This document shows, piece after piece, positions 34,547 to 47,572 of a stretch of DNA of 64,000 bases. Position numbers and translations under genes: made by a program. Origin of the DNA: Hypericibacter adhaerens (GTDB lineage: Bacteria > Pseudomonadota > Alphaproteobacteria > Dongiales > Dongiaceae); assembly GCF_008728835.1 (NCBI RefSeq), contig NZ_CP042582.1:2445001-2509000 (forward strand), written 5' to 3'. The first letter of the stretch is position 1. Each line of letters begins with the position of its first letter. Below the pieces are notes generated by a model, which was not told the DNA's origin, made no database searches, and saw only the letters and a list, made by a program, of their open reading frames with translations.

Positions 34547-35335
34547 TCAGTAATAGCGCTCGATGGCGTCCTTGTATTCCTGGATCGTGTTGCCGCCGTC
34601 GACCACGATCATCTGCCCCGTGACATAGCTCGCTTCCTCGGAGGCCAGGAAGACGCAGACATGGCCGACCTCGTCCGCGCGCCCGGGCCGGCCGGCCGGC
34701 GTATGGTTGCCGGCCACGATCTCCGCCTTGCTGCTCGAACCGGTGGCGATCCAGCCCGGCCCGATGGCGTTCACGGTGATGCCTTTGCGCGCATATTCGA
34801 TCGCCACCTGACGCGTGAATCCCAGCATCGCCGCCTTGGCCGTGCCGTAGGCGGTCGAGCGCGGGATCGCGACCACGGGCCCGGTGACCGACGACATGTT
34901 GACGATCCGCCCGTAGCGCCGCCGCGCCATGCCCGGCAGCACCGCCCGGGTCATCGTGAAGCAGGTGTTCACGCTGATGTCGATCTGGCGGTCCCAGCTC
35001 TCGTCGTCGATCTCATGCGCCCATTGCCGCTTCTGCCGGACACCGGTCTGCGCCATGCCGGCATTGTTCACCAGGATGGCGAGGGGGCCGAGCGCCTTTT
35101 CCGCCTGTTTCGCCATCTCGACGGCGGCGCGCCGGTCGGTCAGGTCGCAGACGAAGGCCGCCTTGTCCTTTGGTCCGCCCGGGAGCTCCTCCAGCCGCTC
35201 GAAAATCCGCTTCGTGGTCGAGGTGATCGCGACCCGGGCCCCGGCCGCGCGCAGGAGCCGGGCGACGGCGAACCCGATGCCGTCCGCGCTGCCCGCGCCG
35301 GTGACGAGAGCGGTGCGGTCTGCGACGCCTGCCAT
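34547..35335 (-). CDS. Short-chain dehydrogenase/reductase (SDR)
   Basis: A 262-aa classical SDR with TGAGSADGIGFAVA as cofactor loop, a basic T/K-rich second-strand end (ITSTTKRIFE) pointing to NADP, NNAG, MSSVTG for the catalytic Ser and YGTAK for Tyr-Lys. It is only distantly similar to the neighbouring SDR. It is the first gene of the SDR-SDR-methyltransferase operon and lies divergent from the lipoprotein gene at 35620, with the GANTC-rich region between. Confidence 0.92.
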   Translation of the reverse strand: MAGVADRTALVTGAGSADGIGFAVARLLRAAGARVAITSTTKRIFERLEELPGGPKDKAAFVCDLTDRRAAVEMAKQAEKALGPLAILVNNAGMAQTGVRQKRQWAHEIDDESWDRQIDISVNTCFTMTRAVLPGMARRRYGRIVNMSSVTGPVVAIPRSTAYGTAKAAMLGFTRQVAIEYARKGITVNAIGPGWIATGSSSKAEIVAGNHTPAGRPGRADEVGHVCVFLASEEASYVTGQMIVVDGGNTIQEYKDAIERYY

Positions 35336-35422: not shown

Positions 35423-35631
35423 GATTCAAGTCACGGACAAGACTCGGGAATTTCCCGCCGCGCTTGAATCCCGGGCGCGCCTTCCCGGCTCCGATGCGCT
35501 CTCCGGAATCCCACTTATGTGATTGATTCTTGACAGATTCTGGCACGACTCAATAATCCCCGATTCCTGAGTCGGCGCACCCCGAGTCGCCGGCCTTTCT
35601 CATTCGAGGAGATTCAGCCATGAGGAGAATC
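35423..35631. promoter_or_regulatory. Dense GANTC cluster (CcrM-type methylation sites)
   Basis: Twelve GANTC sites start at 35423, 35441, 35466, 35506, 35525, 35536, 35547, 35562, 35569, 35584, 35611 and 35627. By simple base-composition reasoning, about one site would be expected in 209 bp. GANTC is the CcrM target in Alphaproteobacteria, where hemimethylation tunes some cell-cycle promoters. The sites surround and abut the promoter of the small lipoprotein gene. Methylation control is inferred. Confidence 0.6.
35530..35557 (+). promoter_or_regulatory. Sigma-70-type promoter of the glycine-zipper lipoprotein gene
   Basis: A perfect TTGACA (35530-35535), a 16-bp spacer and AATAAT (35552-35557, 5 of 6) point toward the lipoprotein gene, with transcription starting about 55 bp before its ATG. 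GANTC sites abut it: GATTC just before the -35, GATTC just after it, and GACTC just before the -10. Starts at 35525, 35536 and 35547 give an exact 11-bp period. Confidence 0.7.
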
Positions 35632-35847
35632 GCGGCGACCCTGGCGGTCGTGACCCTCCTGGGACTGGGCGGCTGCGCCAACATGGATTCGACCGAGCAG
35701 CGCGTGCTGAGCGGGTCGGTGATCGGTGCCGGCGTGGGGGCGGGTGTCGGCGCGTTGACGGGCGGCCTGGGCATCGGCGTCGGTGCGGCGATCGGTGCCG
35801 GCGTGGGCGCCGCGGCCGGCTATGTCGTCGATCAGGTTTCCGACTGA
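35620..35847 (+). CDS. Small glycine-zipper lipoprotein
   Basis: A 75-aa lipoprotein. The signal peptide ends in a lipobox LGLGGC with Cys20, followed by ANMDSTEQRVLSGSVIGAGV. The C-terminal part is a glycine-zipper repeat (GAGVGAGVGA, GIGVGAAIGAGVGAAAGY), typical of YMGG/Gly-zipper outer-membrane lipoproteins with one helical hairpin. The exact role is unknown; related proteins pack against or in the outer membrane. GAGGAG precedes the ATG. The gene has a strong promoter surrounded by GANTC sites, and the second lipoprotein gene starts 1 bp after its stop if GTG 35849 is used. Confidence 0.82.
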   Translation: MRRIAATLAVVTLLGLGGCANMDSTEQRVLSGSVIGAGVGAGVGALTGGLGIGVGAAIGAGVGAAAGYVVDQVSD

Positions 35848-35848
35848 G

Positions 35849-36208
35849 GTGGAGCGGCGGGTCGCGATCTCGCTTCAGCGCTGCCTGCCGCTGCTGGTGG
35901 CGGCGGGGCTCGCCGGCTGCGCCGGCGAAACCAAGCAGGCGGCCGGCCTGTCACGGGAGACGCGGTCGGAGAATTATTGTGCCCGGCTCGCCGGGACCGG
36001 CACGGGTTACTACGACCAGTCGCTGCTGCTGGAATGCCGCCGCGAGGAATATACCGCCGCGGCCCGGGTTCGCGGCCGGAAGGTGCCGGGCGATGTCGAC
36101 GCGGGCTGCGCGGCCACCGCCTCGATGGGCGATCCCCTGCTTCTTTTCTCCTGGTCGCGCTATGCGCTCTGTGTCGAGCGGCTGGCGCCACCGCCGGCGG
36201 AGCCTTGA
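35849..36208 (+). CDS. Small lipoprotein of unknown function
   Basis: A 119-aa protein read from GTG at 35849, which gives a normal signal peptide (ERRVAISLQRCLPLLVAAG) and lipobox LAGC at Cys24. Upstream in-frame ATG codons at 35783 and 35822 would lengthen the N-terminus into the previous gene and give a poorer signal. The mature part has four more cysteines (NYCAR, LLECR, GCAAT, LCVER) and a GYYDQSLLLECRREEY segment; I do not recognise a family. It follows the glycine-zipper gene directly, so the two probably share one transcript and envelope location. Confidence 0.7.
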   Translation: MERRVAISLQRCLPLLVAAGLAGCAGETKQAAGLSRETRSENYCARLAGTGTGYYDQSLLLECRREEYTAAARVRGRKVPGDVDAGCAATASMGDPLLLFSWSRYALCVERLAPPPAEP

Positions 36209-36238: not shown

Positions 36239-37033
36239 ATGAGCTTCTTCCTCGGCAAGTTCCTGGGCTGGGTCACCGATCCGGGCCTTTGGCTCATCCT
36301 GCTGTTGCTGGGTGCGTTCTGGGGATCGTTCCGCCGCCGCGGCGGCGGGGGCGGGCGCGGTTTCCTGGCGCTGGCCCTGCTGCTGACCCTGGCGCTCGCG
36401 GTCCTGCCGGTGGGCGGGTGGCTGCTGCTGCCGCTCGAGAGCCGCTTTCCGGCGCCGGCCAGCCTGCCGGAGCGGATCGACGGCATCCTGGTGCTGGGCG
36501 GCGGCCTCGACGGCAAGGCCTCCGCGGCCCGCGGCCAGCCGGTCCTGAACGACGCCGCGGAACGGTTCACCGCAGCGGCCACCCTGGCACGCGCCCATCC
36601 GGAGGCGCGGCTGATCTTCTCGGGCGGGAGCAACTCGATCTGGGAAGGGCAGGAACCCGAAGCGCATTATGCCGAGCGCCTGCTGCTGGATCTGGGCGTG
36701 GCGCCGGACCGGCTGACGGTCGAGGCGACCTCGCGGACCACGCGGGAGAACGCCGCCAACCTGACGGCGCTCCTGGGCGGGCCGCCGCAAGGCAATTGGC
36801 TGCTGATCACCTCCGCCTGGCACATGCCGCGCGCGGTCGGCTGCTTCCGCCATCTGGGCTGGCAGGTGATCCCCTATCCGGTGGATTACCGGACGCAAGG
36901 AGAGGGCGAGCCGCTCAAGCCGCTGGATCCGGCCGCCGGTTTTGCCGAATTGTCGTTGGCGCTTCACGAATGGTTAGGGTTACTCGCCTATCGCATTCAG
37001 GGTGCGACCGACGCGCTCTTTCCATCGCCCTGA
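36239..37033 (+). CDS. YdcF/ElyC-family (DUF218) membrane-anchored protein
   Basis: A 264-aa protein with two N-terminal membrane segments (about 12-30 and 42-66) followed by a periplasmic DUF218 domain. DUF218 signatures are IDGILVLGGGLDG, ARLIFSGGSNSIWEGQEPEA, RLTVEATSRTTRENAAN and LLITSAWHMPRAVGCF. E. coli ElyC, with the same layout, affects peptidoglycan assembly, which suits the peptidoglycan enzymes encoded downstream. The biochemical reaction of the family is unresolved. The frame starts at ATG 36239. Confidence 0.88.
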   Translation: MSFFLGKFLGWVTDPGLWLILLLLGAFWGSFRRRGGGGGRGFLALALLLTLALAVLPVGGWLLLPLESRFPAPASLPERIDGILVLGGGLDGKASAARGQPVLNDAAERFTAAATLARAHPEARLIFSGGSNSIWEGQEPEAHYAERLLLDLGVAPDRLTVEATSRTTRENAANLTALLGGPPQGNWLLITSAWHMPRAVGCFRHLGWQVIPYPVDYRTQGEGEPLKPLDPAAGFAELSLALHEWLGLLAYRIQGATDALFPSP

Positions 37034-47025: not shown

Positions 47026-47135
47026 TCGCGCCGAGCGAACGGGAGCGGCGAGTGAGGAAGGGCTGGGGGCCGACCCGGCAGATCGGCACTAAGTGAGTCA
47101 TTTGGGCCACAGTCACGGTGCCTTCGCTGTGATCT

Positions 47136-47205
47136 GACTCGCGGAGTCGATTTCCCGAGTCGATTTCATTTGACCGGCTCGACTCGGCTGTGATTCCGTC
47201 GAGTC
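47136..47205. promoter_or_regulatory. GANTC cluster upstream of the divIC-like gene
   Basis: Six GANTC sites start at 47136, 47144, 47157, 47181, 47192 and 47201 within 70 bp, against an expectation of roughly 0.2. GAGTCGATTTC is repeated at 47144 and 47157, and GACTC-GCG-GAGTC forms a small inverted repeat. The last site ends 1 bp before the start codon of the cell-division gene. A TTGACC -35-like hexamer lies at 47170-47175. Control by CcrM methylation is inferred. Confidence 0.55.
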
Positions 47206-47206
47206 C

Positions 47207-47572
47207 ATGGCCATTCGAATCGACCTCCGCCGCTACCTGCGCCAGATCGCGGTTCCGCTGATCGGGGCCTCGTTGCTGGGCTATTTCGGCTATCACGCGA
47301 TCCAGGGCGATCGCGGCCTGATGGCCTGGCTCACCTTGAAGCAGCAGCTGCGCCAAGCCGATGCCCAGCTCGCCTCGCTGCAGGCGGAGCAGGTGGCGCT
47401 CGCCAACCGCGTCCAGCGCATGAGCCCCTCGACGCTCGACGCCGACCTGCTCGACGAGCAGATGCGGCTGATGCTGAACTACGCGCGCGACGACGAGGTG
47501 ATCATCATGCTGCCGACCCCGGCGGCACCGGGCGCAGGTGCCCCCGCGCCCTCGAACAGCGATGTTAACTGA
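47207..47572 (+). CDS. FtsB/DivIC-family cell-division protein
   Basis: A 121-aa septum-formation-initiator family protein. A short cytoplasmic start is followed by a membrane segment (about 14-32) and a coiled coil (about 40-75; KQQLRQADAQLASLQAEQ). After it come VQRMSPSTLDADLLDEQMR, with the conserved LD.D.L(D/E)E pattern of FtsB/DivIC, and a Pro/Ala-rich tail. FtsB joins FtsL and FtsQ at the division site. Its position directly before pdhA is common in Alphaproteobacteria. The promoter region is a GANTC cluster. Confidence 0.9.
   Translation: MAIRIDLRRYLRQIAVPLIGASLLGYFGYHAIQGDRGLMAWLTLKQQLRQADAQLASLQAEQVALANRVQRMSPSTLDADLLDEQMRLMLNYARDDEVIIMLPTPAAPGAGAPAPSNSDVN

Follow-up and report, generated by a model that had tools for sequence, protein, structure and literature searches.

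CcrM-dependent control through GANTC sites in the core promoter has been described in Caulobacter for mipZ, ftsZ, podJ and ctrA P1 (PMC3667746, PMC3708114, PMC4287350). These promoters carry one or two sites, and earlier work on CcrM in Caulobacter has mostly dealt with promoters of this kind; among 96 cell-cycle transcription start sites with GANTC no more than 50 bp upstream only 11 have more than one (PMC4287350). The ftsZ and mipZ promoters are most active when methylated (PMC3708114), and GcrA acts as a σ70 cofactor, promoting formation of the open complex where the promoter is methylated (PMC7403470). For Caulobacter ccrM itself, control by methylation is described only as probable (PMC3973325). 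In Agrobacterium tumefaciens GANTC is strongly over-represented in front of one gene, gcrA, with six sites in 250 bp, and methylation lowers the activity of this promoter region, even in E. coli where alphaproteobacterial factors are absent (PMC11514494). The promoter of Hypericibacter adhaerens considered here, known from sequence alone, resembles the Caulobacter examples in having GANTC in its core but carries 12 sites. The Agrobacterium region has half that density and precedes a regulator gene rather than an envelope gene.

The window analysed is a stretch of 64,000 nucleotides (G000:C1:2445001-2509000) from a genome of 5.87 Mb in one contig, and positions are those of the window unless a contig is named. 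Twelve GANTC sites occupy the 209 bp between 35423 and 35631, starting at 35423, 35441, 35466, 35506, 35525, 35536, 35547, 35562, 35569, 35584, 35611 and 35627. At the rate of upstream regions, 3.9 per kb, 0.8 would be expected, and the preliminary description, which gave 12 sites against about one, had both count and positions right. Eleven sites precede the start codon (ATG at 35620), and the last (35627) lies within codons 3 and 4. In 5000 shuffles of the intergenic stretch that preserved dinucleotides, GANTC averaged 2.2 occurrences and reached 7 at most. Across the whole window the motif is avoided, with 113 occurrences found and 323 expected from shuffles; such avoidance is the usual signature in CcrM-bearing Alphaproteobacteria (PMC3973325).

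Could the sites belong to an unrelated transcription factor such as LexA (GTTC-N7-GTTC), or be a by-product of local composition, with methylation playing no role? GATTC-N6-GATTC does resemble a degenerate direct repeat, and LexA boxes can overlap GANTC (PMC7987155). However, all four bases occur at the variable position (T five times, A three, C and G twice each), a free variation that fits a methylase site and not a single transcription factor, and the spacings include 11, 12 and 13 bp. There is no GTTC core, and no other split palindrome of GANTC-like form clusters in the lipoprotein intergenic stretch. Letters and spacing rule out a LexA-like repeat, and we consider this explanation as a whole very improbable.

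The region contains a single σ70-like match, TTGACA-16-AATAAT (35530-35557, forward strand), with 11 of 12 letters. The -35 hexamer (35530-35535) is identical in a second genome of the genus (G001) and in one from another genus of the family (G002), and the -10 hexamer (35552-35557), at a spacer of 16, is identical in G001. GATTC at 35525-35529 abuts the 5′ side of the -35 hexamer, GATTC at 35536-35540 its 3′ side, and GACTC at 35547-35551 the 5′ side of the -10 hexamer, so that counted from the first T of the -35 these core sites start at -5, +6 and +17. The framing of the core promoter by GANTC, as first proposed, thus holds for the only σ70-like match present, and the hexamers are exactly conserved in G001 though the sequence between them has changed. 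The three core sites lie within 50 bp upstream of the transcription start, predicted from the -10 at about 35564, and a fourth (35562-35566) covers the predicted start itself. Two more (35569 and 35584; 35569-35588) lie in the predicted leader, and the site at 35611-35615, kept in G001, adjoins or overlaps the Shine-Dalgarno sequence GAGGAG. Four sites (35423, 35441, 35466 and 35506; 35423-35510) are upstream of the core and common to a divergent gene; only that at 35466 is kept in G001.

The divergent gene, on the other side of the common intergenic region, encodes a short-chain dehydrogenase (SDR; 34547-35335, reverse strand). On the forward strand the first gene (35620-35847) encodes a 75-residue YMGG-type glycine-zipper lipoprotein, with an LGGC lipobox and a match to PF13441 of 33 bits against a cut-off of 28.9, in agreement with the initial assignment. 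A second lipoprotein, of 119 residues (35849-36208, forward), begins just past the stop of the first gene and is conserved in G001 and G002. It is followed by a DUF218 or ElyC-like envelope biogenesis protein (36239-37033, forward), syntenic in both genomes and the last gene of what, to judge from the spacing, is presumed to be a three-gene operon. MltB-type and RlpA/SPOR genes lie beyond the ElyC-like gene, and from this neighbourhood we infer that the operon may act on the envelope during division. A paralogue of the lipoprotein elsewhere in the genome (57% identical; G000:C1:171815-172030, L025) has only two upstream GANTC, so the cluster is not a trait of the gene family. DalA was considered as a possible relative and set aside, the paper on DalA nowhere mentioning a glycine zipper.

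How extreme is the cluster? In the 2.2 Mb scanned, which took in every tight GANTC cluster found genome-wide, no 209-bp segment holds more than these 12 sites; the next counts are eight upstream of ftsB and seven at each of four loci including gcrA. Tight triplets (gaps of at most 12) number 32 genome-wide against 4 for a reversed control, with four at the lipoprotein cluster and three each at ftsB and at the intergenic region between an ammonium transporter and a flavoprotein. Half of 546 intergenic regions (a 1.24 Mb sample, delimited with a simple codon-usage gene caller that missed atypical genes in some islands) have no GANTC, whereas the lipoprotein region has 11 in 284 bp. The ftsB region (7 in 181 bp) ties it in density. 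Since ranked clusters exist in the same genome, that of the lipoprotein heads a continuous series and is not of a separate kind. The view that it exceeds the usual number of sites stands, as the genome maximum; uniqueness is excluded by that series, dense clusters also occurring at ftsB, gcrA, ccrM and other genes.

Genes preceded by the other clusters are ccrM, gcrA, ftsB, those for a PAS histidine kinase, a SPOR-domain D-alanyl-D-alanine carboxypeptidase and a YdbH-like protein, an mreC-like and a ParA-like gene (both named from their sequences), and also some with no obvious cell-cycle role, such as those for phosphofructokinase and an ammonium transporter. The eight-site cluster of ftsB is in the same window (47095-47221), upstream of the gene for the septum formation initiator FtsB/DivIC (PF04977; 47207-47572, forward); its conserved core, TTGACC-N5-GACTC-N6-GATTC, spans 47170-47196. 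The pattern TTGAC[CG]-N4-5-GANTC-N6-7-GATTC is present in all 15 genomes of the family in which ftsB was found (L149-L163) and in several other families. Like the lipoprotein promoter, ftsB promoters have a -35, a GANTC in the spacer, the next GANTC 11 or 12 bp on and extra upstream sites. They differ in having the second GANTC fill the -10 position itself, always as GATTC within the family, and in lacking a site directly adjoining the -35.

Three of these loci have features of their own. Upstream of gcrA (G000:C1:3527655-3527849, L005; L169) the triplet GATTCGCGGAGTCGCCGAATC is identical in both genomes of the genus and is followed by a long near-identical stretch, a possible conserved regulatory leader. 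The ParA-like gene (G000:C1:3653738-3653881, L108) has six upstream GANTC and lies in a block of atypical composition, possibly an integrated replicon. Upstream of the YdbH-like gene (G000:C1:2792038-2792282, L080) there are nine GANTC together with TCATCCACA/TAGCCACA motifs, which are DnaA-box-like.

The promoter had been described as built from 11-bp units. Three sites are indeed 11 bp apart, and the regularity holds for these only. In simulated clusters any two equal successive spacings occur in 33% and the combination 11-11 in 2%; genome-wide, the spacings of GANTC pairs have no 11-bp peak, which excludes phasing as a general rule, and the G002 orthologue has spacings of 12 and 13 bp. In the ccrM promoters found, the spacer site and the -10 site are mostly 11 bp apart, otherwise 10; for most ftsB promoters the figure is 11 or 12. 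The part of the claim that can be defended on these comparisons is that two core sites are about one helical turn apart.

The core itself has a restricted distribution. The pattern GANTC-TTGAC-N1-5-GANTC-N5-7-GANTC, searched in 385 alphaproteobacterial genomes, gave 12 matches in 12 genomes, one in each, and its reversed control gave none in the same 385. All 11 matches other than that of the lipoprotein, the only exception, are directly upstream of ccrM, so the lipoprotein promoter, with GANTC-TTGAC-N-GANTC-N6-GANTC, has a ccrM-type core; the link is drawn from 11 genomes, which belong to five other families. That ccrM follows the core in all 11 of the other genomes is a further point against an unrelated factor. 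The CcrM proteins of these genomes are 60-73% identical to that of H. adhaerens. Their promoters (L213-L223) share a σ70-like core and the GANTC abutting the 5′ side of the -35, at -5. They differ in the positions of the other two sites (+8 or +9 and +19, as opposed to +6 and +17), in the -35 (TTGACG or TTGACC, where the lipoprotein promoter has TTGACA and a clear -10, AATAAT), in the number of sites (five to eight within 150 bp either side, as opposed to 12) and in the gene driven, ccrM rather than a lipoprotein gene. The ccrM promoter of H. adhaerens is a variant with other gaps, GACTC-TTGACC-N4-GACTC-N3-GACTC. Coupling of TTGAC to GANTC is not a genome-wide rule, having no strong peak and being confined to a few promoters. 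Full-text searches of openly licensed papers turned up neither the three-site ccrM core nor the lipoprotein promoter.

A related core, GATTC-G-TTGACG-GCC-GAATC-CGAAT-GACTC, lies divergent from a resolvase-like gene (G000:C1:3711750-3711779, L129), and the 24 bases from TTGAC to GACTC recur unchanged in G001 (2298816). A mobile element at this locus may use the same type of promoter.

Alignment of orthologous upstream regions gives a divided answer. G002 has an intact, syntenic orthologue of the lipoprotein, 64% identical, and its promoter reads GATTC-TTGACAA-GATTC-N8-GATTC; the sites around the -35 are thus common to two genera. The dehydrogenase gene is still present in G001, along with the genes for the second lipoprotein and the ElyC-like protein (82% identical), but a stop after 15 codons breaks the glycine-zipper gene. 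There the -35, the -10 and the site 5′ of the -35 are unchanged, whilst both spacer sites are gone, those at 35536 and 35547 being replaced by GTTTC and GGTTC. Since spacer sites do occur in G002, the more parsimonious view is that G001 lost them. Five of the 12 sites at the lipoprotein promoter are kept in G001, as opposed to five of five at gcrA; five is more than the background identity of 61% predicts, so the loss is incomplete even without the gene. The cluster is accordingly conserved in only one other genus and partly lost in the congener, which excludes conservation in all relatives; G002 has the only syntenic intact orthologue, in a glycine-zipper family rich in paralogues, and no clear orthologue is seen in further relatives. 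In genome G014 (L045) a similar lipoprotein, assigned by similarity only, has four sites spaced 10, 10 and 16 bp.

Both CcrM and GcrA are encoded in the genome. The CcrM presupposed by the preliminary description is present as a RAMA-domain methylase (G000:C1:901655-902818, E value 7.6e-17), as is GcrA (PF07750, E value 8.8e-39). GcrA with σ70 could bind methylated GANTC at the spacer and the -10 edge and promote open-complex formation, with transcription highest in the methylated state. GcrA is known to activate methylated promoters (PMC3667746, PMC7403470, PMC3708114), and Caulobacter promoters whose GANTC falls between the -35 and the -10 make up a class of their own, switched on 40-60 min into the cycle (PMC4287350). 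The sequence preferred by GcrA, YGAKTCK, fits six of the 12 sites, including 35525 and 35547 at the core (the latter by its bottom strand) and both leader sites. This proportion, against 28% of intergenic sites, is not a significant enrichment (P = 0.09). Moreover, one or two sites suffice for GcrA, which leaves 12 unexplained, and the near-consensus hexamers (11 of 12 letters) are unlike an activator-dependent promoter. We regard activation of this kind, the chief competing explanation, as possible but rather unlikely.

The number of sites might instead point to occlusion, in which the region is covered, and the promoter thereby blocked, by CcrM itself or by a protein that binds hemimethylated or methylated GANTC arrays with a SeqA-like logic. 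The origin of E. coli, oriC, carries a dense GATC array. The lipoprotein cluster is of the same order of density, the sites extend upstream and downstream of the core where neither σ70 nor GcrA would need them, and both are dense arrays of methylation sites that replication would leave hemimethylated. The E. coli system, though, involves GATC and Dam at an origin, and the array here is of GANTC. We know of no sequestration protein in Alphaproteobacteria that binds GANTC arrays, which counts against the idea, and the ccrM and ftsB promoters concentrate their sites at the core, which argues for contact with polymerase rather than coating. Little weight can be given to occlusion.

The explanation we prefer, with a probability of about 60%, is that the state of CcrM methylation at its GANTC sites governs the σ70 promoter of the envelope operon; on/off switching of the lipoprotein gene would probably be read from that state. 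Provided the sites are methylated in vivo, as we infer, GANTC on either side of the -35, next to the -10 on its 5′ side, over the start and in the leader would make promoter activity follow methylation. Most likely RNA polymerase would bind the fully methylated core, or open it, less well, and the promoter would be released during the hemimethylated period that follows passage of the fork. Repression by full methylation is favoured as the likely sign because the core is common to ccrM and because the Agrobacterium gcrA promoter is less active when methylated; given that in Caulobacter methylation goes with peak activity of ftsZ and mipZ, the sign here may be the opposite. Having many sites would give a steeper response than a one-site promoter.

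A tie between envelope growth and replication passage had been suggested, and the position of the locus modifies it. The GC skew switches near 2.6 Mb, parB is at 5.61 Mb and the locus is at 2.48 Mb, which places it near the terminus, about 0.1-0.2 Mb away, with the reservation that the skew is weak and the origin is placed by way of parB. A simple pattern search of sampled stretches found no dif site. In Caulobacter, sites near the terminus are hemimethylated in fewer than 10% of cells (PMC3973325). On that scheme hemimethylation of the lipoprotein promoter would be brief and late, and the predicted pulse of expression would likewise be brief, late and close to division.

The arrangement of sites flanking the -35 and at the -10, common to ccrM across several families, would offer a compact test of direct action of m6A on σ70 promoters, and the same promoter could serve to test whether the number of sites sets the steepness or the timing of the response. 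G001, with a broken gene, the same hexamers and an altered spacer, provides a natural control promoter. More tentatively, and as a possibility we consider doubtful on present comparisons, Alphaproteobacteria may have a distinct methylation-gated σ70 core promoter, with a GANTC-framed -35 and, one helical turn further downstream, a third site at the -10, that is standard for ccrM and has been amplified to 12 sites in this lineage for an envelope operon. Synthesis of an envelope lipoprotein and of the methylase would then run on one replication-coupled methylation clock.
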